This document shows, piece after piece, positions 6,283-52,429 of a stretch of DNA of 64,000 bases (position 1 is its first letter; the number at the start of each line of letters is the position of its first letter). Source of the stretch: Microbotryum silenes-acaulis (taxonomy: Eukaryota > Basidiomycota > Microbotryomycetes > Microbotryales > Microbotryaceae); NCBI GenBank assembly GCA_003665825.1, contig QPFY01000007.1, forward strand, positions 1,550,001 through 1,614,000, written 5' to 3'. Position numbers and translations under genes: made by a program. Under the pieces are notes generated by a model. That model did no database searches. It had not been told where the DNA came from and saw nothing but the letters and a program-made list of their open reading frames with translations.

Positions 6283-6304
6283 CCCCCCCTCGCTCGAAGC
6301 TTAC

Positions 6305-9730: not shown

Positions 9731-9750
9731 TGTTGGAGCAGCTTTAGCTC

Positions 9751-26516: not shown

Positions 26517-26824
26517 TATTGAATCGTATGTCTCGGGAGGGGACTGGATCGGCAACCAGTGAGTACACGAGACACAGTACGAGTTGTGGGAAGTATATTG
26601 GAGCGTTTGGATTGCAACTGACCTGGATCGGCAACCAGTGAGTACACGAGACACAGTACGAGTTGTGGGAAGTATATTGGAGCGTTAGGGGAAAGACTAT
26701 AAGAGGCGCGCAGTGCGAGTGCGCGAAATATCTCTAAGTCCAAAAGGGGTCCGAGCGGCGCGCGGCTGGCTAGGCTGGGCGCGGGTTGGAGATCGACCTA
26801 AGCAAGAGTGTATGGAATTCAACA
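26517..26824 (-). repeat. 3' LTR of C2b (308 bp) and polypurine tract
   Basis: Begins TGTTGAATTCCATAC and ends CGATTCAATA in element sense. The tract GAGGGGGGG is at 26825-26833. A 79-bp duplication (gatcggcaaccagtgagtac at 26549 and again near 26628) is absent from the 5' LTR, so it arose during or after this insertion. Confidence 0.94.
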
Positions 26825-26846
26825 CCCCCCCTCGCTCGAAGCTTAC

Positions 26847-29800
26847 TTAGCCTCTAAGACCCAGGTTGTCACGATGAACCTTGAACACCAAGGGTCCAAG
26901 TGCCTTGGTGAAGATGTCGGCGACCATGGTTTTTGTGTCCACATAGTCGACTTGAATGGTGCCCAGCTTGACCTGGTCGCGTACAAAGTGCTCACGAATG
27001 CGAATGTGACGGGACCGGTGGTGAAGGGTGGGGTTCTTGGCGAGAGCAATGGCTCCTTGGTTGTCGCCGTACAGCTGGACGGGAGCTCGGGTGTCGATGC
27101 CCAGCTCCATGAGCAGTTCTTGGAGGTGGCCAGCTTCCTTTGAGGCATGTGAGAGGGCGAGGTACTCGGCGTCTGTAGTGGAGTCGGCCACACGGTTTTG
27201 CACTTTGGAGGACCAGGAGATGACAGATCCCGCAAGGTGGAAGCTGTACCCCATGGTTGACCGTGATGATGTGGTGCAGGTTCCCCAGTCTGCGTCAGAG
27301 TAACCGGTGAAACCGGAGAACTTGCCTTGTTCAGAGCTGTAGTGCAGTCCCAGACGTGCGGTTCCACGTAAGTACCGGAAGACAGTCTTGATGGCCGTCC
27401 AGTGTTCAGGTGTGGGACTGGCAGAGAAGCGTGCAAGGTATCCGACAGCGTAGGAAATGTCTGGGCGAGTACCGGTGGCAGCGTATAGGAGGCACCCAAT
27501 GGCCTGCATGTAGCGTGTCTGAGCGATCTTTGACGGTTCCGCGAGCGAATGCTCGAGCTGGCGGTTTGGGGCCATGGGCGTGGAGGCGGGGCTGCTGTCT
27601 GACATGCCAAATCTGCGGAGGATACTTGTGATGTACGCCTCCTGCGACAGGATGATGGACTTGTCGGCCTGTCGTTTGATCTGGATCCCCAAGATGTATT
27701 GGGCTGGGCCAAGTCGCTTGATGCCGTATTTTTGCTCCAGGCCGTTGAGGATGCGCTCAATCTCGTCCTCCGAAGGGCTGACCATCAGCAAGTCATCGAC
27801 GTAGAGGGCGATGTAGTGGTAGTGGTCGCCGTCGCGTCGTACGTATACGCAGTGATCCTTGGCTGTGGCGCGGTAGTTGAGGCTTTTTAGCGTCAAGTCA
27901 ATGTGCTCGTTCCAGACTCGGCCGGCCTGCTTGAGGCCGTAGATCGATCGATGGAGTTTGAGGACTTTACCGGGCATGTCAACACCTTGTGGGACTCGCA
28001 TGTAGAGGTCTTCCTTCAGTTCGCCATGGAGGTATGCCTTGTCAACGTCGGCCTGATGGACGTGGAGGTTTTGTGCGGCGGCCAGGGCGATGAGAGCTCG
28101 GATGGAGGTGAACTTGGCGACAGGAGCAAACGTCTCATCGTAATCGATACCTGGGCGCTGGGAAAACCCCTGTGCAACGAGCCGGCCCTTGTGCGAAGTA
28201 ATCTTGCCAAGTTGGTCGCGTTTGGTGCGGAAGATGAACCTGGATCCAAGGACTTTGGCACCGGGGGGCAGTGAGGAGGAGTTGACCGGGGTGAAGCATT
28301 TGTACTCGGTGGCAAGGGAGTGAAACTCATCGGCTGCTGCTTGCCTCCAGATCTCCTCTTTACCTGACTTGACCGCCTGCGACCAATTTTGGGGGTCCTC
28401 GGTTGGCCCTTCGAGTTCGACGACCGGTGAACCAGCAGTGGTGGCGGCGAAGGCAGCGGCGCGAGACGGGCATGACAAGAAGTCGATTGGGTCGGCCGAG
28501 TCGTCGGTCACGTCCGACGCAGGGGGTGATGGCGAGAACTGAGCCCTGGACATGTCGGACGGTGTGTCAAAGCCATCGTCGGACATGTCGATTGTTGTGT
28601 CGTCACTCGCGTTGGTCTCAAGCGCGGCAAATCGATTTTCGTGCACGACAGGCTGGAGGGACGGAGGTGGTGCAGCGCGGGAGCCATGGGCAGCGTCAAC
28701 AAAGGTCCAGTCGCCAGTGGTGGACGTCATGGGAGGTTTCGGTTGGTTGATCGGGGCATCTCGAGCGGGGAAGACTTTCTCATCGAATAGGACGTCGCGA
28801 CTCTGGAAGAACGAAGTTGTGGCCGAGTCGTACAGCGTCCAGGCCTTGGATTTGTTATCGATGCCAACGAAGATGAATGGTTTGGCCTTGGGGTCGAGTT
28901 TTGCCCGCTTGTGCTGAGGGGTGGTGTGCCAGGCGCGGCAGCCGAATACCCTCAGGTTTGCCGTGCTGGGAGGTTTGCCAAACCAGACAGCGTCCGGGAT
29001 CTTGTGGTCGATGGCGCTGTGCGGGCTGAGGTTCTTGGTGTCAACAACGTACCTGAGGGCCTCTCGCCAGAGTGTCATGGGCAGTCCCGAGTGCTGGAGC
29101 AGGGCGATCGTCCCCTCGACAATCGTGCGGTTTGTCCTTTCGGCTCGGCCGTTCTGCTCCGGGGTGTACGGGATTGTGAGCTGCCTGGTAATGCCGTGGT
29201 GAGAGCAGTACTCAATGAAGGCTTTGGACGTGTATTCGCCGCCATTGTCCGTTCGTAGCGTGCGGAGCTTGAGGCCCGTTGAGCGTTCGATCATGGTGTG
29301 CCAACGCTGGAAGGTGTCGAAGACTTGACTCTTGTTTCTCAGTGCGCTGACCCACGTCTTTCGGGAGAAATCGTCGATGAAGGTGACAACATATCGTTCC
29401 CCGTCGGTGGCTGGTTCGGGCAGAGTGAGGACATCGGAGTGGACCAGTTCGAGTGGTTGCGAAGCGCGAGAGTCCGACGTTGGGAAAGATGTCCTGGTTG
29501 CCTTTGCCGCTTTGCAGGTGTCGCAGGAGAAGGCCTTGCATTCGGCCGCCGAGTATGTCCATGTTTGACCTTGTAGTTGACCCGATGAGACTGCCCTTCG
29601 CAGGTTGGGGAGGGACAGGTGGCCGAATCGTTGATGCAGAGTCAGGAGAGGGATGGCGGCGGCTGCAACCGGTGACGGTGTGCAGCGGATTGGGGTGGCG
29701 TCCAGTGTCGACAATTGGTTCGCAATGAGGGATGCGACGCCTATGAGGTGACCTTGTGACCGGAGCTCGATGGTCTTGCCAAAGTGGGTGTAAATGCGCT

Positions 29801-30272
29801 CGCGGCGCAGCTGCATGACCGAGATCAGGTTGGCTGGAAGGTCGGGGACGTAGTAGACGTTGCAGAGCTTGATCGTTCGTTGTTTCGACGTTTGTATCGT
29901 GATCGAGCCGGTGCCTTGTGCCATGAGTGATCCGCCAGCGCCATCAACAGCGATGTGCGACCGTGTGTGCCAGACGTCGAAGAGAGACGCGTCCTTGACC
30001 ATGTGGTGGGAGGCGCCCGAGTCGAGTACTAGGGTGTCGTTGGGAAGGTGAAGCTCCCGGTTCGAGTTCAGACGACCTAGGAGTGCGACGACGTTCACGC
30101 TGGGCCGAACTGTCACGCTCACAGTCGGGTCCAGGTGCGACGTGTCAAGTTGCGTCATGGTGCGGTAACGGCCGGTCGCATAGGCGAGGGTGGTTGCAAC
30201 AGTGTGGTATAGAGCGATGATGATGACGAAGACGATCATGATGGTCGCAAGTGACGATGGTGGTGGTGGCAT
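26847..30272 (-). CDS. Gag-less copia Pol (PR-IN-RT-RH) with hydrophobic N-terminus, C2b
   Basis: An intact 1141-residue ORF, the same length as in C2a. From about residue 51 on the two proteins differ at roughly a dozen to fifteen positions, and all catalytic residues are the same (D84; H213, H218, C250, C253; D280, D342, E378; YVDD 824-827; RNase H Asp/Glu/Asp). In a sampled RNase H stretch the DNA differs by several percent, mostly at silent sites, as expected under purifying selection. The first 50 residues differ far more (about 14 changes), yet residues 7-30 stay hydrophobic (LATIMIVFVIIIALYH). The start is the only ATG after the primer site in this frame. No Gag, nucleocapsid or zinc knuckle is encoded anywhere in the element. 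Confidence 0.94.
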   Translation of the reverse strand: MPPPPSSLATIMIVFVIIIALYHTVATTLAYATGRYRTMTQLDTSHLDPTVSVTVRPSVNVVALLGRLNSNRELHLPNDTLVLDSGASHHMVKDASLFDVWHTRSHIAVDGAGGSLMAQGTGSITIQTSKQRTIKLCNVYYVPDLPANLISVMQLRRERIYTHFGKTIELRSQGHLIGVASLIANQLSTLDATPIRCTPSPVAAAAIPLLTLHQRFGHLSLPNLRRAVSSGQLQGQTWTYSAAECKAFSCDTCKAAKATRTSFPTSDSRASQPLELVHSDVLTLPEPATDGERYVVTFIDDFSRKTWVSALRNKSQVFDTFQRWHTMIERSTGLKLRTLRTDNGGEYTSKAFIEYCSHHGITRQLTIPYTPEQNGRAERTNRTIVEGTIALLQHSGLPMTLWREALRYVVDTKNLSPHSAIDHKIPDAVWFGKPPSTANLRVFGCRAWHTTPQHKRAKLDPKAKPFIFVGIDNKSKAWTLYDSATTSFFQSRDVLFDEKVFPARDAPINQPKPPMTSTTGDWTFVDAAHGSRAAPPPSLQPVVHENRFAALETNASDDTTIDMSDDGFDTPSDMSRAQFSPSPPASDVTDDSADPIDFLSCPSRAAAFAATTAGSPVVELEGPTEDPQNWSQAVKSGKEEIWRQAAADEFHSLATEYKCFTPVNSSSLPPGAKVLGSRFIFRTKRDQLGKITSHKGRLVAQGFSQRPGIDYDETFAPVAKFTSIRALIALAAAQNLHVHQADVDKAYLHGELKEDLYMRVPQGVDMPGKVLKLHRSIYGLKQAGRVWNEHIDLTLKSLNYRATAKDHCVYVRRDGDHYHYIALYVDDLLMVSPSEDEIERILNGLEQKYGIKRLGPAQYILGIQIKRQADKSIILSQEAYITSILRRFGMSDSSPASTPMAPNRQLEHSLAEPSKIAQTRYMQAIGCLLYAATGTRPDISYAVGYLARFSASPTPEHWTAIKTVFRYLRGTARLGLHYSSEQGKFSGFTGYSDADWGTCTTSSRSTMGYSFHLAGSVISWSSKVQNRVADSTTDAEYLALSHASKEAGHLQELLMELGIDTRAPVQLYGDNQGAIALAKNPTLHHRSRHIRIREHFVRDQVKLGTIQVDYVDTKTMVADIFTKALGPLVFKVHRDNLGLRG

Positions 30273-30292
30273 CGTGGAGCAGCTGTTAGCTC

Positions 30293-30304
30293 GGGCTCAT
30301 AACC
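30293..30304 (-). promoter_or_regulatory. Primer-binding site of C2b
   Basis: GGTTATGAGCCC directly after the 5' LTR, the same as in C2a, complementary to the initiator tRNA-Met anticodon region. Confidence 0.83.
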
Positions 30305-30533
30305 TATTGAATCGTATGTCTCGGGAGGGGACTGGATCGGCAACCAGTGAGTACACGAGACACAGTACGAGTTGTGGGAAGTATATTGGAGCGTTAGGGG
30401 AAAGACTATAAGAGGCGCGCAGTGCGAGTGCGCGAAATATCTCTAAGTCCAAAAGGGGTCCGAGCGGCGCGCGGCTGGCTAGGCTGGGCGCGGGTTGGAG
30501 ATCGACCTAAGCAAGAGTGTATGGAATTCAACA
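30305..30533 (-). repeat. 5' LTR of C2b (229 bp)
   Basis: Begins TGTTGAATTCC, ends ATTCAATA. It is the unexpanded form of the LTR. The outer flank GCGGG (30534-30538) matches 26512-26516. Confidence 0.94.
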
Positions 30534-31412
30534 GCGGGCGCGGAAAGCGGCGGCCCAGGCGGTGTCAGGACAATCTCTGAGCCAGTGCAGTTGGCGACAT
30601 GTTGGGTTGGGGCATGGTCCGGGAACGGCGCGGTGCTGGGGGGTGGCGACAGCGACAGCGGGAGCTTCAGCCGGACGAGCCTTGATCTCCCGATAGATGC
30701 GGTTGAGGATGTCGGCCGCGGGAGGTAAGGTACCGGATGTGCCCTGAGCATTCACGAAGGTTGTGCGCCATGCGGAGAGGGACGATGGCATCCTCGCGAG
30801 TAGGTGAGACGCAAGCAGGGAATCTGTGGTGACGTTGGAGTCGGCGAGAAGTCGAGAATCATTGTCAAAGCGATCACGAAACTGGAGGAATGCGTCGGGG
30901 CTATCGGGCATGGGCTCGGGGCTGAAGAGGCGAGCGACAACGGGTAGGAGGTCGACAGCCGAGACGGCGCCATATCGCATGCGGAGAGCCACCCAAATCT
31001 TGTGGCCGCTGTGGGCGTCGCCGAAGTAACGAGAGAGACCGGGAAGAACCATCCGTGGGTCGACGGCGGCGCAGATGGAGGCGCGAGCGTAGTGATCCCA
31101 TAGTGGGACGTAGGACGGGGGCCAAGATGGATGGGGTACACCGGATTAAAGGTATCCGAGGACGTCGGAGGGTAGGCGGGAGCACAGCGTAAGGACCCAG
31201 TCCTGGTAGCCGTTGGCGTCGCGGAGGAGATCGGAGGCAGCAAAGGCTGCGACTTGCGTGGGCGGGCGAGGTGGAGGAACCGCGAGCGTCGTGGCGGGGC
31301 CTACGGACTTGCTGTCGGCAGGCGCGGACTTGGTGTCGTCAAGCGCAGACATGCTGAGTCGTGCGGAGCGCCGGGCAAAGCCGGGCGGTGCGAAGGACGC
31401 AAAGTTCGACAA
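30534..31412 (-). pseudogene. C3 gag
   Basis: The frame starts at the ATG at 31412 and runs to the C2b insertion. A copia-type Gag core is recognisable (YQDWVLTLCSRL early; later FLQFRDRFDNDSRLL and LLASHLLARMP), followed by a zinc-knuckle-like CPNPTCRQLHWLRDC whose spacing is CX4CX3HX4C rather than CX2CX4HX4C. A TAA at 31146-31148 interrupts it, and the frame continues in phase beyond. It joins the C3 pol frame across the C2b insertion once one GCGGG is removed, so C3 had a single Gag-Pol frame. Confidence 0.85.
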
Positions 31413-32282: not shown

Positions 32283-32435
32283 TGTTGAATTTCATTCTAC
32301 TACAATCCTTCGAACACTTCAACCTTGCGCCGCAACTTACCCGGCCCGCCCATTTTCTTGTCTCGAGCGCCTTTCGCCTCGGCGCACTCTCGCCTCGAGC
32401 GCTTTTTCGCCTCGGCGCGTTCTCGTCTCGGGCGC
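32283..32435 (+). repeat. 5' fragment of a Gag-only-family LTR (second copy of the chimera)
   Basis: It reads the same as 9947-10099 and is joined to the same family G LTR position. It begins TGTTGAATTTCATTC. The shared junction at two sites means one chimeric piece was copied. Confidence 0.82.
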
Positions 32436-32730
32436 TGGCAGGCGACGTCCGCAGGGATGACGTCGTCTACACGCGTTGGTGCGAGGGGGGGGATTTCAGG
32501 AAGCGTCGGCTGTTGCGGCGGCAGTCGACAGAGGAGCAACCGAGGAGGGGAGTCGGTCGAGAGGCTCGCAGGAAATCAAGTATAACGGACTTAATTCCCA
32601 AACGATCGACAAGAAGAGGAAGGGCAACAAAACAAGAAGAGCGGACCAAGCTCCGGGGGAAGGTGCTAAGACAAAAAGGAAGGGACTGCTCCAGGCACAG
32701 AGGGGACTTAGCCAAATCAACCACTCCAAG
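32436..32730 (-). repeat. Partial family G LTR
   Basis: It matches the first 295 plus-strand bases of the LTR at 10100-10661 and stops at ccactccaag, where the first 84-bp minisatellite module begins. The rest of the LTR is missing. Confidence 0.85.
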
Positions 32731-33440
32731 TATATAGGTATCATAGGTGGGGTAGAGCCCAATTCCGGGATACATTTTGGAATAGAACCCCAAATTCCCA
32801 GTGAAAATGAAAATTGACAGTGCAGGGGAAATTGCTCGTGCACTGCTGAAATCCACTTTTTCGACTCTGAAGGGCGGCACACATCAAAAACCGTCAAATC
32901 GAGGTGCACGGTCAATTGCTCGTGCACCGCTGAAATCCACTTTTTCGACTCTGAAGGGCGGCACGGGTCAAAAACCGCCAAATCGAGGTGCACGGTCAAT
33001 TGCTCGTGCACCGCTGAAATCCACTTTTTCGACGCTGAAGGGCGGCACGGGTCAAAAACCGCCAAATCGAGGTGCACGGTCAATTGCTCGTGCACTGCTG
33101 AAATCCACTTTTTCGACGCTGAAGGGCAAGTCAAACATCGCCAAATTGAGGTGCACGGGGAATTGCTCGTGCATTGCGAGATGGCAGTGCAGCGTGAAAC
33201 CCCGTGCACCGAGTAAGCCTGAGCCCAGAGCGCTGAACCGAGATCGGATCCGAAATGGGAAACCCATTTCGGGCTTCGGCGTATCGCTAGAGCTGAGCCA
33301 CGGCAGACTTGAGGACTTGTAGACGTTGATAAGTTTATTGCAACTCTGTCACGATCACAGCTGGCTTATATAGGCTTGATTTGTCCTATTCTGCGTTGTT
33401 TTTTCAGTATACTCAATTTTACTAGTCGTTGTGGCCTCGT
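32731..33440 (+). repeat. Minisatellite module M84-1
   Basis: A 5' segment starts TATATAGGTATCATAGGTGG (32731-32815). About four to five units of an 84-bp repeat follow, each with the hairpin GGTGCACG-N10-CGTGCACC. A 3' module starts near 33190 with a perfect hairpin CCGAAATGGG-AAA-CCCATTTCGG and ends at ...tactagtcgttgtggcc. The long frames through it exist because 84 is divisible by three. I see no gene. Confidence 0.85.
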
Positions 33441-38410: not shown

Positions 38411-39945
38411 GTATATAGGTACCATAGGTGGGGTACAGCCCAATTCCGGTTTACGTTTTGGATTAGAACCACAAATCCCCAGTGAAATTGAAAAGTCGCA
38501 GTGCACGGGGAATTGCTCGTGCACTGCTGAAATCCACTTTTTCGGCAAAACCGTCAAATCGAGGTGCACGGTCAATTGCTCGTGCACCGCTGAAATCCAC
38601 TTTTTCGACGCTGAAGGGCGGCGCGGGTCAAAAACCGCCAAATCGAGGTGCACGGTCAATAGCTCGTGCACTGCTGAAATCCACTTTTTCGACGCTGAAG
38701 GGCGGGGCACAAGTCAAAAACCGTCAAATCGAGGTGCACGGTCAATTGCTCGTGCACCGCTGAAATCCACTTTTTCGACGCTGAAGGGCGGCACGGGTCA
38801 AAAACCGTCAAATCGAGGTGCACGGTCAATTGCTCGTGCACTGCTGAAATCCACTTTTTCGACGCTGAAGGGCGGGGCACAAGTCAAAAACCGTCAAATC
38901 GAGGTGCACGGTCAATTGCTCGTGCACTGCTGAAATCCACTTTTTCGACGCTGAAGGGCGGCACGGGTCAAAAACCGTCAAATCGAGGTGCACGGTCAAT
39001 TGCTCGTGCACCGCTGAAATCCACTTTTTCGATGTTGAAGGGCGGCACAAGTCAAAAACCGTCAAATCGAGGTGCACGGTCAATTGCTCGTGCACCGCTG
39101 AAATCCACTTTTTCGACGCTGAAGGGCGGCACGGGTCAAAACCGTCAAATCGAAGTGCACGGTCAATTGCTCGTGCACTGCTGAAATCCACTTTTTCGAT
39201 GTTGAAGGGCGGCACAAGTCAAAAACCGTCAAATCGAGGTGCACGGTCAATTGCTCGTGCACTGCTGAAATCCACTTTTTCGACGCTGAAGGGCGGCACG
39301 GGTCAAAAACCGTCAAATCGAGGTGCACGGTCAATTGCTCGTGCACCGCTGAAATCCACTTTTTCGATGTTGAAGGGCGGCACAAGTCAAAAACCGTCAA
39401 ATCGAGGTGCACGGTCAATTGCTCGTGCACCGCTGAAATCCACTTTTTCGACGCTGAAGGGCGGCACGGGTCAAAAACCGTCAAATCGAGGTGCACGGTC
39501 AATTGCTCGTGCACCGCTGAAATCTACTTTTTCGACGCTGAAGGGCGGCACAAGTCAAAAACCGCCAAATCGAAGTGCACGGGGAATTGCTCGTGCACTC
39601 ATGAAATCCACTATATATATGGGCAATTGCCAAATACCACATGGCACAGACTCCCGAGAGACGCTTGCAAAGAAGCTCGCGCGAGCATCCTGTGGCATTT
39701 GAGAGTGGGGTGGTGGGGGGCAGCCGCACTCGTAGCCTTCGGCCACCGGCGCTCGCGATCTCCCATTTCGGGCTTTGGTGTATCGCTGGAGCTGAGGCAC
39801 GGCAGACTTGAGGACTTGTAGACGTAAATAAGTGTATTGTAACTCTGTCACAATCCCAACTGGTTTGTACATGCCTAATTTGTGCGATTATGCATTGTGC
39901 TTTGAGTATACTCAATTACACTAGTCGTTGTGGCCTTGACGACTT
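38411..39945 (+). repeat. Minisatellite module M84-2 (about 13 units)
   Basis: Starts TATATAGGTACCATAGGTGG after ...cttgatcgag. Units are mostly 84 bp, some 83 or 86. The last unit is at about 39590. The 3' module (39606-39945) opens with tatatatgggcaattgcc, then a degenerate form of the 36090 palindrome, and ends ...cactagtcgttgtggcc. Two alternating unit subtypes (gggcggcacgggtcaaaaacc and ggcggcacaagtcaaaaacc) indicate duplication in pairs. Confidence 0.87.
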
Positions 39946-41144: not shown

Positions 41145-43563
41145 CGGACTCGCGCGCGCCAACACTCCTTTCCCTCTCCCCACTCACTCGCACCACTCGC
41201 ACCATTTGACTCGATTTGGACTCGGCACTGATCGCACCACGCCACAACTCGACGTCACATGCTTTCGCATCGTTCACATGCGCCATTCAAGCTGCAAGAT
41301 GCAACTCGATCTCTCAACTACAGCTCGACGTGTCACCTCAAGCCGGCTGAGGCGGGCCGGTGCGACGTCGCACAACACGGTTAACAACGAGTCCAACACT
41401 GCCATCTTCAACACGATAACTAAAAACCGCCACCTGAGAGGGCGCGGTCACTCTCAGCAGCGTCCAAGCTTACGTCGATGCATCGCTCGAGCATTCTCGG
41501 TCGGACACGTGCTCGGTCAGCGCATCGCCTCGTTGACCCCGGTCGCCCTCTCGCTGCTCGACCGATGAATGTGGTGAGCTCTTCATTCGCATAGTATTCA
41601 GCGGGAACTGAAATCGCTCACCTCATGTACGTCTTTGCTGCTCATCACTCTAGTTCAGATCGTGCGTTGGCCGTCTCGCTGGCATCCGAGCCTTGCACCG
41701 AACCGCTCTGTGACTTGTAGGACCATACTCTGCGATCACAGTGCAGAACCCACATCAGCACCATTGAAAAGATGATACTTTTCCGCGGTCTCGAATTGGT
41801 GCACACATCACTCGATCCTCGTCGCTCCACCCCGAACACCACTGTCGACCTGTGCCGATCTCCTCCGCCACCCCCACATGGTGCACCCGCGTCGTCAACG
41901 TCAACCAATCGCACGAATGCATTCCCTCACATCTCTTTCTTGATCGAGTCGGAGAGTCTCATCGACGCGGCTAGCTTGGGGTTTGTTGAAACATCTGTTG
42001 CGCGACTCGACTGATTTCGTCAATGTCGAGATCGGACACCTTCATCGGCTCAAGCACTTTCTCGACCGCGCCGCGAATCACTCAACCTCCCGCGCCCGTC
42101 ATCCAGCTCTTCGAGTCATCCGGTTAAAGCCACTACGTCTCAGCTCGTCGCTCTAAACATCTCCCGAACTCGTTCGGCAGTCACAAAGCGAACCAACGTC
42201 CGAAAGGTCAGTGAGTGCCTTTAACCTGAAGGCTTTCCCTTCCTCCACCTCGTGTGTTGCAAGTCTGTGCCCTCTTGCTTATGTTTGACTTTTCTTTCGC
42301 TCCACCAGGTCATGGATTTTAGCCGGCGCTTAACTCGACTCTTTAAACTCCGACTCGTTCGAAACCGTTTCTAGCTCTCATGGATGGACCTCGATCTCCT
42401 CTCGATCAGCCCTGACCGCAAAACTCGACTCGGTGCGATTCGACGATGGTGCAAGCTCTCAACTTTGCCGCTGCTGCATCCGCCACCCAAGATTCGATAT
42501 CCGCCGATCCCTCGCACCATTCGACTCGGCTCGACTTTTCCTCTCACTGCACGAAGACACGACGACGCAACGCCTTGCTGCCATGGTGAAACATCACTTG
42601 CCCGGTACATGCGGCTCGACCCTACTCGACCCGGCACATGGCGTGTCACCTGGAGCCGGCTAAGGCAAGCATGACACCGTTTAGCAACTGCAACTGCAAC
42701 ACCCTCACCCCCCCCCCCCCCCCCCCCCCCAATTGGAACGACTCGATAAGAAGCTCCAAGATACCCACAGTTGCGTCCGGGCTATGTCGATTGCTCACTC
42801 GAGCCATCGCGACCGGAACTGCTCGACCTCGGACGACTCGCTCAGACCGCCGACAGTGAGCTGTTTCGATCTTAGCTCTCACTTGTGACTTGCCCTCCTT
42901 GCTGATAAGACGAAGATATGCTGTGTCACCGCGTACTGCAGATCGTTGGTCACGGAAGACCTGGAATGGGAGCGCTTCCTCGAATGAAACTTCGCACCGA
43001 CTCGCTCACATGCTCGCACGGCCCACATCCGAGCTCGTGCATCACCATCCATCCCCCGGTTTCTCTTGCGACAAGCTCCCAGCACACAGACTAGTGTCGG
43101 CCTTCTTGCCACTGGAGATCCGCCAGGAACGCTTGCTCGCCCAGCAGCTTTGGACCCGCTGCGAGCGAATTGCTCAATCGCCCGCCCTCGTCATCCAGCT
43201 TGTCAAGGCATCCCAGACCGTCTACGTTTCATCCCATGGCACCTCAACAACCCACCTTCCCGCTCGTCTCCTTGCCGTTCAAGTTGACCGGACTTGCACG
43301 CTGACTTCCTACCTCGTCGATCGCCCCGACCAATCGAGTGTCCGGCAAAGCTCTCGAGCTCGCGACACAACAACCACTCGCTCCATCACCTCTTCCTCGA
43401 ACACCGTACTACGTTGCGCACGATTATTCATGCAGCCAGGACTCGGGCTTCTTCGGACCACTCGGCGCTCGAATCCGGGGTCGGACGGTGACGATCCTTT
43501 GCACTCTCAATCGACCTCGGCGAATCGCTCGACCAGCTGGATACGTGCGATCACCATCCCACC
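41145..43563 (+). repeat. Array unit U3, part before the Gag-only element
   Basis: Palindrome at 41360-41373. It contains a 23-base C-run (42708-42730) and the block around gcgtactgcagatcgttggtcacggaag (42930) shared with 49600, 54640 and 59480. The 325-codon frame at 42890-43867 crosses into the transposon LTR and is not a gene. It ends in CCACC (43559-43563), the left target duplication. Confidence 0.78.
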
Positions 43564-44448
43564 TGTTGAATTTCATTCTACTACAAGCGTTCGAACACTT
43601 CAACTTTGGGCCGCCGTTTGTCAGGACCGCCCAGTTTTCGGCGCCTCTTTCGCCGCCGCGCGCCTTCGCCTCGGCGCCTTTGCCCTCGCTGCCAAGCCGC
43701 CCCCCAGTCTTTCGCCTCGGCGCCTTCGCCTTCACAGCCAAGCCGCCCCCCTTTTGTTCGCCGCTCCCGCGCCAGCCTGTTCAACTCACGCTCGCGCGCC
43801 GCCGCCTCCACATCGGAACTTAGTCGGTCTACTTCTCCTGTCTTGCCAAGCCGTTGCCTCCGCCTAGCCACCGCCAGCTTGCCGCCACCGTCCTCATGTC
43901 TCATCGGCCATCCAGTGTATCGCCCATGCATGACGCCCGTTGTTCGCAACCTGGATCTTGTTGCTACGGATTGCCCAGCTCACCAACACTCGACCAAGGT
44001 AGATAAGTTTCCCTTCGTGTACATCGTCCAACACGACACCCCTCAGAGCCTTGATGGTCCGCTTGGAGTTCGGTCTTGTAGCTTCGCATTGTGCTAGCCC
44101 AGTTTGTCTTAGCGCGGCCCCTTGCTAGAACCTCACCCGACTCGCGCGCCCCTGTGCCTTTCTTCCTCTTCTCTACCGCTTCCCAACATTAGCCAGACAG
44201 CTAATCTTCGGTAGAGAACAGGTTAGTTGCAATCATCATACCGCTTCCCAACATTAGCCAGACAGCTAATCTTCGGTAGAGAACAGATCGTCCAGCCGCA
44301 CCGCGTCCGTCTCATCAGACCGCGCCAGTGCCGCCTCACGACTTCTCCTGTCGACCGTCCGTCGCATCCTTGCCACGTCGACGCTCCACTAGTAGCCCTA
44401 GCGGTCGCTACGCCAAATTCCGATAAGCCCTACAGTCCACATTCAACA
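43564..44448 (+). repeat. LTR 1 of the Gag-only element (885 bp)
   Basis: Begins TGTTGAATTTCATTC and ends ACATTCAACA. The middle is a GC-rich run of TTCGCCTCGGCGCC-like imperfect repeats. Two hairpin copies near the 3' end (about 44171-44219 and 44239-44283) carry inner stem ATTAGC/GCTAAT and outer stem CTACCG/CGGTAG. Confidence 0.95.
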
Positions 44449-44459
44449 GGTTATGAGCC
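44449..44459 (+). promoter_or_regulatory. Primer-binding site overlapping the Gag start codon
   Basis: GGTTATGAGCC matches the C2 site over 11 bases and differs from the GGTTATAAGCC of C1 and C3. The ATG at 44453-44455 lies inside it and is in frame with gag. Confidence 0.82.
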
Positions 44460-45622
44460 TACTTCGACCCGAACTGCCCAGATTCCCCCCAGCACCCACG
44501 AACCCTGCCGACGACACAGCCTCGGCCGCACCTGCCCACACCGAACCACCCGTACCCGACGAAGCCGACGGCACAATGTCCAGCCACGTTGACCCCACCC
44601 TGGCCGCCAGCATTGACGAGCGCATCCACATGGAAGTCCAACGTCGCCTCCGAGAATTCACCATGTCCCCTAGCCCGGCCCCAGATCGCAGACCCCACCA
44701 CAACATCGACATCCCCCGCCACCTTTCAAGCTGGCCGGCCGACGCTCTCCTTTCTGGTGTTGAAACCTTCCGCGTTTGGAACCGCACGTTACAAGACCGC
44801 GTAGGTACTACGATCTACGCCTACATCACCACTGGACACCTACCCGACCGTGCCGACGACATCGACCGTGAGAATGTCGAAATCTTTGCCGTCCGCCAAG
44901 TCTCCGATGGCGTCGCAAGTAACGTCCGCAAGTCCCTGCTCACCGTCGCCTCGACGCAACAACGCGCCCAGGCCTACTACGAACATCTTGACCACGAGTA
45001 CAACCCTACGTCGGCACAGTCTACCCTTCGTATGCTTCACTCATTCTTCAACATCACCCGTGCCCCCATCGAAGAAAAGGGCTTCGTCGAATGGATGACC
45101 GACTTCCTCGACCACTCAAACTGTCTCGAGTCCGCCAATATTACAATCACCGACGTCATCACCGCCCGAGCACTTACCCTCATCCCCGACGAACTAGATG
45201 CGTTCCGACAATACATGGAACTGCACAACACGGACAAACTTCCAACACCGGCAAACCTGATGGCCCTCGCACACAAGCAGGTCAAAAACCATCACGACAC
45301 TCGAAACGCCGGCTCGAACGTCACCGCATTCGCAGCAACCTCCTCGAACACTCCGTCATCGAACAAACCTAACACTTCATCCCGATCGTCGCAACTACCA
45401 CCGGCCCGATACATGTGCCCTGCCTGTAAGATCAGCGTGCACCGCGTCCGTGACTGCCCCGACGACGAAGCACGACAACGTTACATCGATCGCCGCAACC
45501 GACAACCACAACAACCTGTGGATCAGAATACAGACACCCCAGAGGACGCACCCGTTGTAGCATCCATCTCAAGGTTCCAAGATTTACCAGACCCCTCAAC
45601 GCGCCTCGGCCAGAATTGGTAA
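44453..45622 (+). CDS. Copia-type Gag, first copy
   Basis: A 389-residue protein with no catalytic domain. After a Pro/Ala-rich acidic N-terminus there is a helical core (about 95-280) whose segments MLHSFFNITRAPIEEK and RALTLIPDELDAFRQY align in order with the C1 Gag core. A single zinc knuckle CPACKISVHRVRDC lies at 322-335 (CX2CX4HX4C). The tail is short and polar and ends in a true stop. The first ATG lies in the primer site; M42 at 44576 is an alternative start, and a short polar N-terminus would fit either. Expected role: capsid/nucleocapsid that packages RNA. It is a fully open frame, unlike the C3 gag, which argues for recent selection or very recent origin. Confidence 0.92.
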   Translation: MSLLRPELPRFPPAPTNPADDTASAAPAHTEPPVPDEADGTMSSHVDPTLAASIDERIHMEVQRRLREFTMSPSPAPDRRPHHNIDIPRHLSSWPADALLSGVETFRVWNRTLQDRVGTTIYAYITTGHLPDRADDIDRENVEIFAVRQVSDGVASNVRKSLLTVASTQQRAQAYYEHLDHEYNPTSAQSTLRMLHSFFNITRAPIEEKGFVEWMTDFLDHSNCLESANITITDVITARALTLIPDELDAFRQYMELHNTDKLPTPANLMALAHKQVKNHHDTRNAGSNVTAFAATSSNTPSSNKPNTSSRSSQLPPARYMCPACKISVHRVRDCPDDEARQRYIDRRNRQPQQPVDQNTDTPEDAPVVASISRFQDLPDPSTRLGQNW

Positions 45623-45737
45623 AGTTACCCCTCCGCCCCGCGCCCAGGTCCCCCTACACCGGTCACTACCTCGTCGATTACACTACTTGCCTCAACCTCC
45701 CTTCGTGCTCTTATGGAAGCGTTCGAACGAGGGGGGG

Positions 45738-46622
45738 TGTTGAATTTCATTCTACTACAAGCGTTCGAACACTTCAACTTTGGGCCGCCGTTTGTCAGGA
45801 CCGCCCAGTTTTCGGCGCCTCTTTCGCCGCCGCGCGCCTTCGCCTCGGCGCCTTTGCCCTCGCTGCCAAGCCGCCCCCCAGTCTTTCGCCTCGGCGCCTT
45901 CGCCTTCACAGCCAAGCCGCCCCCCTTTTGTTCGCCGCTCCCGCGCCAGCCTGTTCAACTCACGCTCGCGCGCCGCCGCCTCCACATCGGAACTTAGTCG
46001 GTCTACTTCTCCTGTCTTGCCAAGCCGTTGCCTCCGCCTAGCCACCGCCAGCTTGCCGCCACCGTCCTCATGTCTCATCGGCCATCCAGTGTATCGCCCA
46101 TGCATGACGCCCGTTGTTCGCAACCTGGATCTTGTTGCTACGGATTGCCCAGCTCACCAACACTCGACCAAGGTAGATAAGTTTCCCTTCGTGTACATCG
46201 TCCAACACGACACCCCTCAGAGCCTTGATGGTCCGCTTGGAGTTCGGTCTTGTAGCTTCGCATTGTGCTAGCCCAGTTTGTCTTAGCGCGGCCCCTTGCT
46301 AGAACCTCACCCGACTCGCGCGCCCCTGTGCCTTTCTTCCTCTTCTCTACCGCTTCCCAACATTAGCCAGACAGCTAATCTTCGGTAGAGAACAGGTTAG
46401 TTGCAATCATCATACCGCTTCCCAACATTAGCCAGACAGCTAATCTTCGGTAGAGAACAGATCGTCCAGCCGCACCGCGTCCGTCTCATCAGACCGCGCC
46501 AGTGCCGCCTCACGACTTCTCCTGTCGACCGTCCGTCGCATCCTTGCCACGTCGACGCTCCACTAGTAGCCCTAGCGGTCGCTACGCCAAATTCCGATAA
46601 GCCCTACAGTCCACATTCAACA
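45738..46622 (+). repeat. LTR 2 of the Gag-only element (885 bp)
   Basis: The central LTR is shared by both units and preceded by the tract CGAGGGGGGG (45728-45737). It reads the same as LTR 1 and LTR 3. No target duplication is seen at its borders, so the tandem was not made by a second independent insertion. Confidence 0.95.
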
Positions 46623-46626
46623 GGTT

Positions 46627-47796
46627 ATGAGCCTACTTCGACCCGAACTGCCCAGATTCCCCCCAGCACCCACGAACCCTGCCGACGACACAGCCTCGGC
46701 CGCACCTGCCCACACCGAACCACCCGTACCCGACGAAGCCGACGGCACAATGTCCAGCCACGTTGACCCCACCCTGGCCGCCAGCATTGACGAGCGCATC
46801 CACATGGAAGTCCAACGTCGCCTCCGAGAATTCACCATGTCCCCTAGCCCGGCCCCAGATCGCAGACCCCACCACAACATCGACATCCCCCGCCACCTTT
46901 CAAGCTGGCCGGCCGACGCTCTCCTTTCTGGTGTTGAAACCTTCCGCGTTTGGAACCGCACGTTACAAGACCGCGTAGGTACTACGATCTACGCCTACAT
47001 CACCACTGGACACCTACCCGACCGTGCCGACGACATCGACCGTGAGAATGTCGAAATCTTTGCCGTCCGCCAAGTCTCCGATGGCGTCGCAAGTAACGTC
47101 CGCAAGTCCCTGCTCACCGTCGCCTCGACGCAACAACGCGCCCAGGCCTACTACGAACATCTTGACCACGAGTACAACCCTACGTCGGCACAGTCTACCC
47201 TTCGTATGCTTCACTCATTCTTCAACATCACCCGTGCCCCCATCGAAGAAAAGGGCTTCGTCGAATGGATGACCGACTTCCTCGACCACTCAAACTGTCT
47301 CGAGTCCGCCAATATTACAATCACCGACGTCATCACCGCCCGAGCACTTACCCTCATCCCCGACGAACTAGATGCGTTCCGACAATACATGGAACTGCAC
47401 AACACGGACAAACTTCCAACACCGGCAAACCTGATGGCCCTCGCACACAAGCAGGTCAAAAACCATCACGACACTCGAAACGCCGGCTCGAACGTCACCG
47501 CATTCGCAGCAACCTCCTCGAACACTCCGTCATCGAACAAACCTAACACTTCATCCCGATCGTCGCAACTACCACCGGCCCGATACATGTGCCCTGCCTG
47601 TAAGATCAGCGTGCACCGCGTCCGTGACTGCCCCGACGACGAAGCACGACAACGTTACATCGATCGCCGCAACCGACAACCACAACAACCTGTGGATCAG
47701 AATACAGACACCCCAGAGGACGCACCCGTTGTAGCATCCATCTCAAGGTTCCAAGATTTACCAGACCCCTCAACGCGCCTCGGCCAGAATTGGTAA
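46627..47796 (+). CDS. Copia-type Gag, second copy
   Basis: A 389-residue protein identical to the product of 44453-45622, including the zinc knuckle at 322-335 and the start codon within the primer site (46623-46633). The exact identity, together with identical LTRs, means the duplication is very recent or is kept uniform by recombination. Each gag has its own upstream LTR, so both could be transcribed. Confidence 0.92.
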   Translation: MSLLRPELPRFPPAPTNPADDTASAAPAHTEPPVPDEADGTMSSHVDPTLAASIDERIHMEVQRRLREFTMSPSPAPDRRPHHNIDIPRHLSSWPADALLSGVETFRVWNRTLQDRVGTTIYAYITTGHLPDRADDIDRENVEIFAVRQVSDGVASNVRKSLLTVASTQQRAQAYYEHLDHEYNPTSAQSTLRMLHSFFNITRAPIEEKGFVEWMTDFLDHSNCLESANITITDVITARALTLIPDELDAFRQYMELHNTDKLPTPANLMALAHKQVKNHHDTRNAGSNVTAFAATSSNTPSSNKPNTSSRSSQLPPARYMCPACKISVHRVRDCPDDEARQRYIDRRNRQPQQPVDQNTDTPEDAPVVASISRFQDLPDPSTRLGQNW

Positions 47797-47911
47797 AGTT
47801 ACCCCTCCGCCCCGCGCCCAGGTCCCCCTACACCGGTCACTACCTCGTCGATTACACTACTTGCCTCAACCTCCCTTCGTGCTCTTATGGAAGCGTTCGA
47901 ACGAGGGGGGG

Positions 47912-48796
47912 TGTTGAATTTCATTCTACTACAAGCGTTCGAACACTTCAACTTTGGGCCGCCGTTTGTCAGGACCGCCCAGTTTTCGGCGCCTCTTTCG
48001 CCGCCGCGCGCCTTCGCCTCGGCGCCTTTGCCCTCGCTGCCAAGCCGCCCCCCAGTCTTTCGCCTCGGCGCCTTCGCCTTCACAGCCAAGCCGCCCCCCT
48101 TTTGTTCGCCGCTCCCGCGCCAGCCTGTTCAACTCACGCTCGCGCGCCGCCGCCTCCACATCGGAACTTAGTCGGTCTACTTCTCCTGTCTTGCCAAGCC
48201 GTTGCCTCCGCCTAGCCACCGCCAGCTTGCCGCCACCGTCCTCATGTCTCATCGGCCATCCAGTGTATCGCCCATGCATGACGCCCGTTGTTCGCAACCT
48301 GGATCTTGTTGCTACGGATTGCCCAGCTCACCAACACTCGACCAAGGTAGATAAGTTTCCCTTCGTGTACATCGTCCAACACGACACCCCTCAGAGCCTT
48401 GATGGTCCGCTTGGAGTTCGGTCTTGTAGCTTCGCATTGTGCTAGCCCAGTTTGTCTTAGCGCGGCCCCTTGCTAGAACCTCACCCGACTCGCGCGCCCC
48501 TGTGCCTTTCTTCCTCTTCTCTACCGCTTCCCAACATTAGCCAGACAGCTAATCTTCGGTAGAGAACAGGTTAGTTGCAATCATCATACCGCTTCCCAAC
48601 ATTAGCCAGACAGCTAATCTTCGGTAGAGAACAGATCGTCCAGCCGCACCGCGTCCGTCTCATCAGACCGCGCCAGTGCCGCCTCACGACTTCTCCTGTC
48701 GACCGTCCGTCGCATCCTTGCCACGTCGACGCTCCACTAGTAGCCCTAGCGGTCGCTACGCCAAATTCCGATAAGCCCTACAGTCCACATTCAACA
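47912..48796 (+). repeat. LTR 3 of the Gag-only element (885 bp)
   Basis: Same sequence as LTR 1 and preceded by the tract CGAGGGGGGG (47902-47911). It ends TCAACA at 48796 and is followed by the right CCACC duplication (48797-48801). Confidence 0.95.
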
Positions 48797-51266
48797 CCAC
48801 CTCCGCGACATGCACGTTCGTACACGCGTCAGCAACCCTGGTCATGTGGTCAAGGACTGCGATCAGTGTCGCCTAGTGCTCCGTCTCTACTCGCTTCGCT
48901 TCTTGCACTCACCTCGCTTGGTATCGACGAACTCGTTTGGCATTTACTAATCGAGCAAACGTCCGAATGGTCAGTGCGTGCCTTCCCTTCCTCCACACCT
49001 TGTGTTGGAAGTATGTGCACTCTTGCTCATGTTTGACTCTTGATTTGCTCCACCAGGTCTCAGATTCCCGCCTGCGCTCAACTCGACTCTTTGGACTCCG
49101 ACTCGCTCGCAACCGTTCCCAGTACGTCTCCCGGAAGAATGATCGTCCACTGCTTCCAATTGGGGATCGACACCTTTGTGGCGAAGCTTGCTTTGCTCGA
49201 CCTCGATCTCCTCTCCCTCGGCCCTGACCTCAAAACTCAACTCGTGCGACAGATCACTCGTCGAGGAGCGTGCAAGCTCTTATCTTTGCCGCTGCTGCCT
49301 CCGCCACCCACGACTCGATATTCGCCTATCTCTCGCACCACTCGACTCGACTCGTCTTTTCTTTCACTGCACGAAGACACGACGACGCAACACTTTGCCG
49401 TCATGGTGAGACGTCACTTGCTCGGTACATGCGGCTCGACCTTACTCGACCCGGCACTTGACGGGTCACCTGGAGCCGGCTGAGGCAAGCGACGACGCGC
49501 CCTTCAGCAACTGCAACCCTCATCATCGCCAATCGGCCTTCAACGACTCGCCTCGCTTGCAACTTGCACCCCTTGCTGATGGGATCAATATATGCCGTGT
49601 CACTCTGCGCAGTGTGGATTGTTGGTCACGGAAGACCTGGAATGGGAGCGCTTCCTCGAATGAAACTTCGCACCGACTCGCTCACACGCTCGCACGGCCC
49701 ACATCCGAGCTCGTGCATCACCATCCATCCCCCGGTTTCTCTTGCGACAAGCTCCCAGCACACAGACTAGTGTCGGCCTTCTTGCCACTGGAGATCCGCC
49801 AGGAACGCTTGCTCGCCCAGCAGCTTTCGAGCCGCTGCGTGCAATTTGCTCAATCGCCCGCCCTCGTCATCCGGCTCGTCAAGGCATCACAAACCGTCTA
49901 CGTTTCAACTCATAGATTGAAACATCTTGGTTTCCGCCTGCCTCGCCCATCAATTGGACCGGAGTTGCACGCTGACTTTTAACCTCGTCGATCGCTCCGA
50001 CCGATCGACTTCATGGCAAAGCTCCCGAGATGTGCCACGGAACACCTCCTCACTGCTTCACACCTTTAAGGTTCAACGTGCGCAACGCAATATGGAGTCC
50101 GATTAAGATGTGAAGCAATGAGGAGGTGTTCCGTGGCACATCTCGGGAGCTTTGCGACTCGGGCTTCTCCACACCACTCGGCGCTCGCTTTCGGCGGTGG
50201 ACCGTGACGATCCTTCGCACTCTCAATCAACCTCGGCGATTCGACCAGCTTGTTACGTGGGATCACCATCCCATTTCTCCGACTTGCACGTTCGTACACG
50301 TTTCATCAACCCTGGACATGTGGTCATGGACTGCGCTAAGCGACGCACGGTGTTCCATCTCCCCTCGCTTCGCTTCTTCATGCATTCACCTCGCTTGGTG
50401 TCGACAAACTCGTTTGGCATTTACTAAGCGAGCACACGTGCGAAAGGTCAGTGCGTGCCATCAAATTAAGGGCTTCCCCTTCCTCCACACCTTGTGTTGC
50501 AAGTAGGTGCACTCTTGCTTATGTTTGACTTTTCTTTCGCTCTCAGATTCCAGCCTGCGCCTAGCTCGACTCTTCAGACTCCAACTCGCTCGAAACCGTT
50601 TCTCGCTCTCATGGATGAATGATCGTCGACTCTTTCCAATTGAGGATCCAGACTTTTTCGGCGAGACCTGCTTTGCTCGACTTCGATCTCCTCTCAATCG
50701 CCCCCGACCTCAAAACTCAACTCGGTGGGACAGATCCCTTGTCGAGGAGCATGCAAGCTCTCGTCTTTGCCGCTGCTGCTTCCGCCACCCAAGACTCGAC
50801 AATCGCCGATCACTTGTGTGAGGAGGCTTCGTCAACCATGCGAACTCTTCTGGGCGACCTAGCGCCCTGCCCGCTCGCCTTGACATTGAGAACGAAGGAC
50901 CACCCGGACTCTTTGGCCAACTGCTCGAGCGACCTTTCCCCCTGTCACTTCTTTCCCTGCATTTTGAGGTACGATTGTTGGAGCATGTGCTCCCGCAATA
51001 CCAGTTGGTCTTTGAGCTCATATGTGCGTGTCTGAGAACCTTTGGATCTTCTTGACCCATTCTTGCCCGGGTTTTCCTGCGGCCTCGGACATGGTTCTGC
51101 CGCAAACGACCTCAATGGGATGTTCTTGTATCAAATCCGACATGAACTCTGGACTACCAACTGCTGAACGCAAGCAAAATTGTGTCGGAGAATGTCAAAG
51201 TGACTCACTGGATCGATCGTATTCGTCGCTCATGCGTATGCGTCGCCCATGCCGACCGAGCTGCAG
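48797..51266 (+). repeat. Array unit U3, part after the Gag-only element
   Basis: It resumes the unit at tccgcgacatgcacgttcgtacacg and holds repeated internal blocks: cgaatggtcagtgcgtg (48963), gcaagctcttatctttgccgctg (49270) and the 49600 block. Near the end it reads ctcatatgtgcgtgtctgagaac (51017), shared with U4 and U5. It contains the foldback at 50016-50155. No gene is supported. Confidence 0.75.
50016..50155. repeat. Long foldback from a local inverted duplication
   Basis: Arms 50016-50062 and 50109-50155 are reverse complements over 47 bases with one mismatch, separated by 46 bases. Other units (for example near 55075 and 59885) have a single arm in normal orientation followed by the sequence that here appears inverted in the spacer. 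Confidence 0.9.
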
Positions 51267-52429
51267 TATATACGTATCATAGGTGGGGTACAGCCCAATT
51301 ACGGGTTACATTTTTGATTAGAACCCCAAATCCCCAGTGAAAATGAAAAGTGACAGTGCAGGGGGAATTGCTCGTGCACTGATGAAATCCATTCATTCGG
51401 CAAAACCGCCAAATCGCAGTGCACGGGGAATTGCTCGTGCACTGCTGAAATCCACTTTTTCGGCAAAACCGCCAAATCGAGGTGCACGGTCAATTGCTCG
51501 TGCACTGCTGAAATCCACTTTTTCGACTCTGAGGGCGGCACGGGTCAAAAACCGCCAAATCGAGGTGCACGGTCAATTGCTCGTGCACTGCTGAAATCCA
51601 CTTTTTCGACTCTGAGGGGCGGCACAAGTCAAAAACCGCCAAATCGAGGTGCACGGGGAATTGCTCGTGCACTGCTGAAATCCACTTTTTCGACGCTGAA
51701 GGGCGGCACAAGTCGAAAACCGTCAAATCGAGGTGCACGGTCGATTGCTCGTGCACTGCTGAAACCCACTTTTTCGACTCTGAGGGCGGCACGGGTCAAA
51801 AACCGTCAAATCGAGGTGCACGGTCAATTGCTCGTGCACCGCTGAAATCCACTTTTTCGACGCTGAAGGGCGGCACGGGTCAAAAACCGTCAAATCGAGG
51901 TGCACGGTCAATTGCTCGTGCACCGCTGAAATCCACTTTTTGGACGTTGAAGGGCGGCACAAGTCAAAAACCGTCAAATCGAGGTGCACGGTCAATTGCT
52001 CGTGTACTGCTGAAATCCACTTATTCGGCAAAACCGCCAAATCGCAGTGCACGGGGAATTGCTCGTGCACTGCTGAAATCCACTTGCTCGACGCTGGAGG
52101 GCGGCACAAGTCAAAAACCGCCAAATCGAGGTGCACGGGGAATTGCTCGTGCATTGCGAGATGGCAGTGCAGCGTGAAACCCCGTGCACCGAGTAAGCCT
52201 GAGCCCCGAGCGCTGAACCGAGATTGGATCCGAAATGGGAAACCCATTTCGGGCTTCGGCGTATCGCTAGAGCTGAGCCACGGCAGACTTGAGGACTTGT
52301 AGACGTTGATAAGTTGATTGCAACTCTGTCACGATCACAGCTGGCTTATATAGGCTTGATTTGTCCTATTCTGCGTTGTTTTTTCAGTATACTCAATTTT
52401 ACTAGTCGTTGTGGCCTCGTCTGAGGCAT
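51267..52429 (+). repeat. Minisatellite module M84-3 (about 10 units)
   Basis: Starts TATATACGTATCATAGGTGG directly after ...gagctgcag. The corresponding U5 sequence at 61070 continues tgacatgccg instead, marking the left boundary. The 3' module (from about 52180) is nearly identical to that of M84-1, including the CCGAAATGGG hairpin (52230-52252), and runs into unit U4 in the same way as M84-1 runs into U1. Confidence 0.86.

Follow-up and report, generated by a model that had tools for sequence, protein, structure and literature searches.

A Copia retrotransposon of Microbotryum silenes-acaulis that is probably divided between a Gag-only and a Pol-only family with common terminal signals

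The stretch of DNA considered here, 64,000 nucleotides of the basidiomycete Microbotryum silenes-acaulis (assembly GCA_003665825.1, contig QPFY01000007.1, positions 1,550,001 to 1,614,000; hereafter the window), harbours two kinds of incomplete Copia elements, a Gag-only element named GA (43564-48796) and a Pol-only family named C2, which carry the same short signals at the start of their long terminal repeats (LTRs), at the primer site and at the polypurine tract. With a probability of roughly two in three, as judged from the sequences, these elements belong to a two-part Copia retrotransposon, in which separately mobile families would each carry part of the coding capacity and which would be accompanied by a satellite. 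The genes are divided between families with common signals, GA has inserted recently and independently, the open reading frames (ORFs) of both halves bear the marks of selection, and no matching Gag-Pol element occurs in the data searched. In a more demanding view, to which we give a somewhat better than even chance, the retrotransposon would be obligately two-part: two separately mobile lineages, neither able to move alone, would have retained nothing but the integrase, primer and tract signals in common from a time before the split of two Microbotryum species, and a third lineage, almost devoid of coding capacity, would depend on both.

The Gag-only element announced in the original prediction is present with its LTRs, its gag ORF and its flanking CCACC duplications. 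It is a tandem of three identical LTRs of 885 bp and two identical internal regions, with a period of 2174, bordered on both sides by CCACC. In each internal region, the primer site GGTTATGAGCC is located immediately 3' of the LTR and the polypurine tract CGAGGGGGGG immediately before the next LTR. The gag gene consists of a single ORF of 389 amino acids (aa), the start codon of which is the ATG within the primer site; its product contains a CX2CX4HX4C knuckle, read from the translated sequence, and the ORF stops ahead of any protease (PR), the product being also devoid of integrase (IN) and reverse transcriptase (RT). With its paired LTRs, primer site, tract and Gag and its lack of Pol, GA has the make-up of a Gag-only, TR-GAG-like element. 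The GA Gag has weak Pfam matches, with E values of 0.0037 (zinc knuckle) and 0.015 (Ty5 Gag region) that both fall short of the cut-off; among the other Gag proteins, that of GB, a second Gag-only family described below, matches the Ty5 Gag region (0.0075) and no knuckle, P0003 shows a weak knuckle and P0004 none. The GA Gag aligns with the Gag portion of Copia polyproteins, with a best E value of 3.6e-18. The features of GA are the following:

43559-43563, no strand: target site duplication CCACC, left, 5 bp, read from the sequence
43564-44448, plus: GA LTR 1, 885 bp, 100% identical to both other LTRs
44449-44459, plus: primer site GGTTATGAGCC, abutting the LTR and including the gag ATG
44453-45622, plus: gag ORF, copy 1, 389 aa, with knuckle
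45728-45737, plus: polypurine tract CGAGGGGGGG
45738-46622, plus: GA LTR 2, common to both tandem units
46623-46633, plus: primer site, unit 2
46627-47796, plus: gag ORF, tandem copy 2
47902-47911, plus: polypurine tract, unit 2
47912-48796, plus: GA LTR 3
48797-48801, no strand: target site duplication CCACC, right, 5 bp

The Pol-only family is represented in the window by the copy C2B (26517-30533, minus strand) and by the broken copy C2A (6056-9946, minus strand). C2 encodes, in this order, PR/BBD, IN, RT and RNase H (RH) without any Gag, in agreement with the earlier claim that the only matching Pol source of the window is itself Gag-less, and its Pfam domains Pol_BBD, rve, SH3_retrovirus and RVT_2 follow the gene order of Copia (Ty1). 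The features of both copies are the following:

26512-26516, no strand: target site duplication of C2B, CCCGC in element orientation, 3'-LTR side
26517-26824, minus: C2B 3' LTR, 308 bp including an internal duplication of 79 bp
26825-26834, minus: C2B polypurine tract CGAGGGGGGG
26847-30272, minus: C2B pol ORF, counted from its first Met, with BBD/PR, IN, SH3, RT and RH; Gag absent
30294-30304, minus: C2B primer site GGTTATGAGCC, the ATG of which opens the mini-ORF MSPS*
30305-30533, minus: C2B 5' LTR, 229 bp
30534-30538, no strand: target site duplication of C2B, CCCGC in element orientation, 5'-LTR side
6056-6282, minus: C2A 3' LTR
6283-6292, minus: C2A polypurine tract CGAGGGGGGG
6305-9730, minus: C2A pol ORF, Gag absent
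9752-9762, minus: C2A primer site GGTTATGAGCC
9763-9946, minus: C2A 5' LTR, interrupted by a later insertion beginning at 9947

The absence of Gag extends to all C2 leaders read in the genome surveyed (29.85 Mb in 88 contigs): in 36 out of 36, 14 of which were read over 73 bases each, the pol ATG occurs 20-24 nt after the primer site, without Gag. The ATG of the primer site, which serves as the Gag start in GA, GB and the elements L081, L082 and L098 introduced below, opens in 33 of these 36 leaders an ORF of only four codons (MSPS, once MSLS), followed by a stop. Forty-one matches were retrieved from the genome with the C2 Pol, all of them C2 and 94-100% identical (best 40 of 1246 candidates scored), and the 95 C2 matches of at least 100 aa, found in 364 kb of loci, fall into two groups, up to 65% and from 85% identity upwards, the interval between them being empty; the nearest RT among the Gag-Pol elements read is about 64% identical. 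The possibility that C2 corresponds to a broken copy of C3, an element with its own Gag, was rejected: the RT differs by ~35-40%, the ORFs are intact and the signals are different. As further particulars of the family, a mismatch in LTR length within a single element (3' LTR of 308 bp, 5' LTR of 228-229 bp) is found in C2B and at contig C6:1309970-1313450, caused by a duplication of 79-80 bp confined to one LTR, and a hydrophobic stretch, IMIVFVIIIALYHTVATTLAYA, occurs at the N-terminus of the C2 Pol (30177-30242, minus strand), upstream of the protease, with a counterpart in the homologs from Microbotryum saponariae.

Full Gag-Pol Copia elements with which GA and C2 can be compared also occur in the genome. 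L081 (contig C3:834756-839800) is a young element with an LTR pair 99.65% identical over 287 bp and the duplication AGGAT, and L098 has an LTR pair 99.6% identical over 273 bp and the same primer site. In L081, Gag-PR and Pol lie in different frames, through frameshifting or mutation. Two other elements, L097 and L082, exhibit ORFs of 558 and 580 aa, respectively, starting from or near the primer-site ATG (with one base different in L097) and covering Gag and a protease-like part; no RT occurs downstream within the stretch read.

The LTR start, tract and primer site that had been described as common to GA and C2 are borne out by motif counts in the window. The LTR start TGTTGAATTYCAT gives 9 matches with at most one mismatch (0.12 expected), the primer site GGTTATRAGCC 6 matches with at most one mismatch (1.0 expected), and the tract CGAGGGGGG 8 matches (0.77 expected), half of them in GA or C2 and the other four in another repeat. 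Between GA and C2, the first 13 bases of the LTR are identical at 12 positions and the following 12 bases at a single one; the tract region is identical at 15 of 18 positions and the primer site at all 11 bases. Only one exact match exceeds 13 bp, namely the tract/LTR start CGAGGGGGGGTGTTGAATT of 19 bp, and the match formed by the primer site and the last LTR base reaches 12 bp; the similarity of GA and C2 therefore ends where the start-side signals end. The corresponding values for L081, L098 and C1, another element of the window with its own Gag, against GA are 5/13, 6/13 and 5/13 for the LTR start (C1 once in register) and 10/18, 7/18 and 8/18 for the tract region. The distinct signals ascribed to the latter type of element were also found, C1 having the LTR start TGTGAG and both C1 and C3 carrying GGTTATAAGCC. 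A chance similarity of the common signals was rejected, because the window matches exceed expectation and a reversed-pattern control gave no junction genome-wide.

The tract-LTR junction was followed through the whole genome, where 67 exact junctions distribute among C2 (35), GA (15), GB (6) and a short, TRIM-like family (11), against 0 for the reversed pattern, and no Gag-Pol element occurs among the 67. Thirty-eight junctions were assigned from the DNA read (L021-L050, L099-L101, L001 and four in the window) and 29 from coordinates, i.e., from their position relative to the lists of Gag, Pol and primer sites, one TRIM-like site being assigned by its primer site. Five extra relaxed tract sites, two of them unlisted, fall outside the sites read, for ~3 expected by our own estimate with uniform base composition. 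A genome search with the GA Gag retrieved 14 complete copies at ~100% identity, GB at 9 places (74-81%) and pieces of one more GA copy on contig C69, after which the identity falls to 22-27% (best 102 of 342 candidates scored). GB is a second Gag-only family using the same signals. The tract and LTR are reached within 250 bp at 21 of the 24 GA/GB Gag places, the remaining ones being truncated (L073, L074) or located outside the DNA read (contig C19:69337). The TRIM-like family has the same signals, an internal region of 572-587 bp in the three copies read and LTRs of 992-1228 bp, and its internal region keeps an ORF of ~150 aa with a Gag-like beginning. It is represented in the window by a solo LTR:

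13910-15137, plus: TRIM-like solo LTR (start TGTTGAATTGCAT, end CACTCAACA) inside a Ty3 element, with AACCT on both sides

The combination of an LTR end AACA with the primer site is found at 87 places, 82 of which belong to the four families, the other five being the Gag-Pol element L098, which belongs to another clade, and four places without family assignment. No Gag-Pol element combining TGTTGAATT...AACA LTR tips with the tract CGAGGGGGGG was seen among the 67 junctions and the elements read. Within the limits of these searches, the genome-wide check proposed with the original prediction revealed neither a C2 relative with Gag nor a Gag-only relative with Pol, and the full-length Gag-Pol element that would speak against the split did not turn up: L081, L098 and C1, the full elements read, have another LTR start and tract.

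With respect to mobility, all 11 GA sites tested (10 elements and a solo LTR on contig C55) are bordered by perfect 5-bp duplications, each different from the others, and therefore correspond to independent insertions; together with the near-identical LTRs of the GA copies, they indicate that GA moved recently. The GA-type DNA on contig C69 and a solo LTR on contig C8 stand outside this count, and the C8 and C55 solo LTRs, which occupy the same C2 position, may represent one insertion copied later. A local segmental duplication of GA was rejected because of the distinct duplication at each of the 11 sites. The 5-bp duplications claimed earlier hold for these GA sites and, with CCCGC, for C2B; both they and the TG..CA form of the LTRs, apart from some C2 ends in TA, conform to the Copia (Ty1) superfamily. 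Four of the 10 GA elements are tandems of the type LTR-gag-LTR-gag-LTR inside one target duplication, namely that of the window (43564-48796) and those at contigs C18:53675, C19:36783 and C34:18743, which points either to the insertion of tandem cDNA or to cDNA having recombined with a copy already in place. A tandem arrangement is also apparent among TRIM-like copies (contig C37, period 1579).

Identical or near-identical LTR pairs are found in GA, GB, C2 and the TRIM-like family, and other C2 and GB pairs differ. The LTRs of C2B are identical over 202 bp; among seven C2 pairs from outside the window, two are identical over their full length (229/229 and 228/228) and one over the aligned part, with different lengths. 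The GB pairs give 860/860 aligned positions with 7 gaps, 843/844, 794/794 with 66 gaps and, for a fourth pair with a possibly misplaced 5' end, 719/792 with 71 gaps. One TRIM-like pair is identical at 992/992 positions. The ratio of non-synonymous to synonymous substitution rates (dN/dS), calculated for the two window copies of C2, is 0.10 for Pol as a whole, 0.047 for RT-RH and 0.42 for the short leader; between the GA and GB Gags it is 0.15, at a dS of about 1.0, and 0.08 in the capsid core. Owing to these low values, Gag and C2 Pol both look as if they had been kept by purifying selection.

Outside M. silenes-acaulis, only six proteins match the GA Gag, all from M. saponariae and M. silenes-dioicae. 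The gene models of M. saponariae comprise C2 homologs of 1093 and 1061 aa without Gag, 89-90% identical over residues 20-1149, and Gag-only homologs, 70-78% identical; read by eye, the longest Gag model continues into what is apparently the same tract and LTR start. The same division of Gag and Pol thus probably exists in M. saponariae. M. silenes-dioicae possesses two incomplete Gag-only proteins, P0006 and P0008; either both halves decayed in this species or Gag outlived C2. The next relatives of C2 are Gag-Pol proteins about 58% identical in RT (P0014; best 120 of 1053 listed), and stretches of the P0014-type Gag-Pol family in the loci of the present genome are 60-65% identical to C2. In trees of Gag and RT (81 and 89 rows, respectively), both halves are located on isolated long branches, the Gag-only clade with a support of 1.0 and the nearest Gag-Pol elements separated from them by about 2.9 substitutions per site for Gag and 0.8 for RT. 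Because of these isolated branches, so distant from the nearest Gag-Pol elements, an origin by fission is neither shown nor excluded.

Some copies carry what seems to be a trace of the priming reaction. A stretch of 31-33 nt replaces the leader beside the primer site in three C2 copies (L084, L088 and L062), which are those whose leaders are devoid of the four-codon ORF, and in one GB copy (L058), the same tRNA-like copy being present in all four. It reads as the complement of the 5' half of a tRNA, with a D-arm and a CAT anticodon arm, and would fit a fragment of Met-tRNA copied during reverse transcription, as if by the plus strand. Met-tRNA is the probable primer, judging from the CAT anticodon arm and the D-arm pattern; no primer tRNA gene was identified in an Rfam tRNA search (best 63 of 669 candidates scored). 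The tRNA-like string also occurs outside the four families, at contigs C1:169178, C8:655304, C8:1077313 and C16:135257, where the preceding bases resemble, at some of these sites, an LTR end of the L081 type; no tRNA was recognized there by ARAGORN (all four sites) or Rfam.

According to the two-part reading, GA and GB would supply Gag, and C2 the protease, integrase, reverse transcriptase and RNase H. Particles built from the GA/GB Gag would package the RNAs of GA, GB, C2 and the TRIM-like family together with the C2 Pol, the C2 RT would prime all four RNAs at their common Met-tRNA-like site and purine tract, and the C2 integrase would recognize the common LTR tips and insert the products with 5-bp duplications. 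The TRIM-like family, which keeps the signals and the Gag-like ORF start, would ride on both halves. Since only short, enzyme-read DNA signals are common to both, a mutual need of the Gag-only and Pol-only families is suggested; the mutual dependence put forward in the original prediction gains support from the separate genes, the shared signals, the young copies and the selection, although obligate dependence, co-packaging and the use of Pol and Gag in trans are themselves inferred.

Various observations weigh against this reading. The 3' tips of the LTRs do not separate the families, those of C2B and C2A agreeing with GA at 7/8 and 5/8 positions and those of L098 and C1 also at 5/8. The LTR ends described as lying near TTCAACA in both families match more poorly than had been stated: GA ends in ATTCAACA, and the C2 copies end variously in ATTCAATA, ATTCAACA, GATTAACA, AATTAACA, GTTTAACA, ACTTAACA or ACTCAACA, in some cases with TA. 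The integrase-proximal ends of the two families agree at the starts (12/13) and less well at the 3' tips (5-7/8), where the agreement of some copies with GA is no better than that of L098 and C1. The primer site also occurs in the full Gag-Pol elements L081 and L098, and the L098 LTR likewise ends in CAACA. The LTR bodies of GA and C2 show no similarity, without any exact match of at least 14 bp outside the tract/LTR start, so that no shared promoter is seen at this match length. Four of the seven C2 LTR pairs outside the window differ, so that not all C2 copies are fresh. A Gag-versus-Pol mirror test brought no information either way, C2 ranking 6th of 17 and the controls being spread from 1st to 13th. 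In M. silenes-dioicae, no C2-like protein above ~58% occurs among the best 120 of 1053 listed. Finally, a rare Gag-Pol relative of C2 could hide beyond the candidates scored in the protein search, since these were the best 40 of 1246.

Some of these points would be readily understood if the families were unrelated parasites, GA and GB borrowing Pol and C2 borrowing Gag from ordinary Gag-Pol Copia elements, with tips that are relics of common descent. The young L081 and L098, with their identical primer site, would be available as donors, GA is matched at its LTR 3' tip by L098 and C1 no worse than by C2A, the Gag-only pieces of M. silenes-dioicae lack a close C2 protein among those listed, and the Gag donor inferred for Tos17 is a relative with which it shares no integrase signal (PMC3977881). 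We regard this explanation as unlikely, however: the full elements read carry other LTR starts and tracts, the sharing between GA and C2 is limited to terminal signals without any other long stretch, which is unexpected under neutral descent, and the GA/GB Gag is under purifying selection.

An autonomous Gag-Pol parent that is unassembled, masked, unsampled or very recently lost, C2 and GA being its deletion derivatives, appears less probable still. The assembly is in 88 contigs, the scored Pol candidates are a fraction of the total and five relaxed tract sites lie outside those read, but all 67 exact junctions and all 36 C2 leaders are accounted for, the C2 gene models of M. saponariae have no Gag, no Gag-bearing protein exceeds ~58% in RT among the best 120 of 1053 listed, and GA and GB are both Gag-only in spite of a dS of about 1 between them. 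As no long stretch beyond the signals is shared by GA and C2, the two did not arise by recent deletion from a single parent. It is very improbable that the GA/GB Gag acts as an inhibitor or decoy of other Copia particles, on the Pol of which GA would spread. Gag-only products can be dominant negative, and the truncated Ty1 Gag p22 of yeast interferes with particles; the GA Gag, however, retains its knuckle and, at ~20-27% identity to the Gags of Gag-Pol elements, would be too distant for easy co-assembly.

Comparable partnerships are known from plants. In Einkorn wheat, RLG_Quinta is a Gag-only partner with the LTR tips, primer site and tract of its enzyme supplier RLG_Cereba, and the pair has been called partly mutualistic; unlike GA and C2, these are Gypsy elements, a further domain without known function is present in Quinta, and the incompleteness is limited to one partner, as Cereba carries both Gag and Pol (PMC11302176). 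Sabrina and WHAM are Gag(-PR) elements with little beyond LTR tips and primer site in common with their Pol supplier Wilma, which differs from C2 in being complete, within a Gypsy system of plants (PMC9744471). As in pairs of this type, GA and C2 have the same primer site, conserved LTR termini and apparently simultaneous activity, an autonomous partner being absent from the elements read. With its intact Pol, absent Gag and recent activity, C2 resembles Tos17 and BARE2. Tos17 of rice is an active Gag-less Copia element with an ORF of similar size (1058 aa), but the donor inferred for it, Lullaby, is a full Gag-Pol element sharing the primer site and no integrase signal, and no Gag-only partner is described (PMC3977881). 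BARE2 of barley is a Copia element unable to make Gag and packaged in trans, but its donor BARE1 is a Gag-encoding relative (PMC3735527). The plant TR-GAG elements are, like GA, LTR elements with Gag alone; for GA, the searches made revealed no Pol source with matching signals other than C2, which lacks Gag, and no Gag-Pol helper occurs among the 67 junctions. TRIM elements (PMC3532108) are short LTR elements without Pol, from which the TRIM-like family differs by its ~150-aa ORF with a Gag-like start and its long LTRs of 992-1228 bp.

Each of the helper systems compared has, as far as the sources describe them, a known or inferred autonomous Gag-Pol element; the present case would differ in having two incomplete partners instead of one. 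No case of a two-sided Gag/Pol split was apparent from titles and the beginnings of abstracts in the open-access literature, and the words gag and non-autonomous are absent from the main text of a Microbotryum transposable element survey (PMC10502011). If the obligate split is real, it would parallel among retrotransposons the division of multipartite viruses, the proportion of Gag to Pol being determined by separate transcription units and not by frameshifting or splicing. Its stability without a Gag-Pol element would mean that the genome of a retrotransposon can be divided in the way known from such viruses. Cooperation and cheating among selfish elements would become measurable in a small fungal genome, which would also offer a natural test of the parts played by the Gag:Pol ratio, packaging signals and integrase-end recognition in holding two lineages together.

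Other repeats complete the picture of the window. Two inverted, near-identical Ty3 copies occur at 1-2997 and 12749-16978, one of them split by the TRIM-like solo LTR, and arrays of an 84-bp repeat overlap open reading frames at 32708-33259, 38452-39762 and 51453-52157. Short GA-like LTR starts, TGTTGAATTTCAT, are fused at 9947-10099 and 32283-32435 to a repeat present several times in the window, which also holds the CGAGGGGGG motif.

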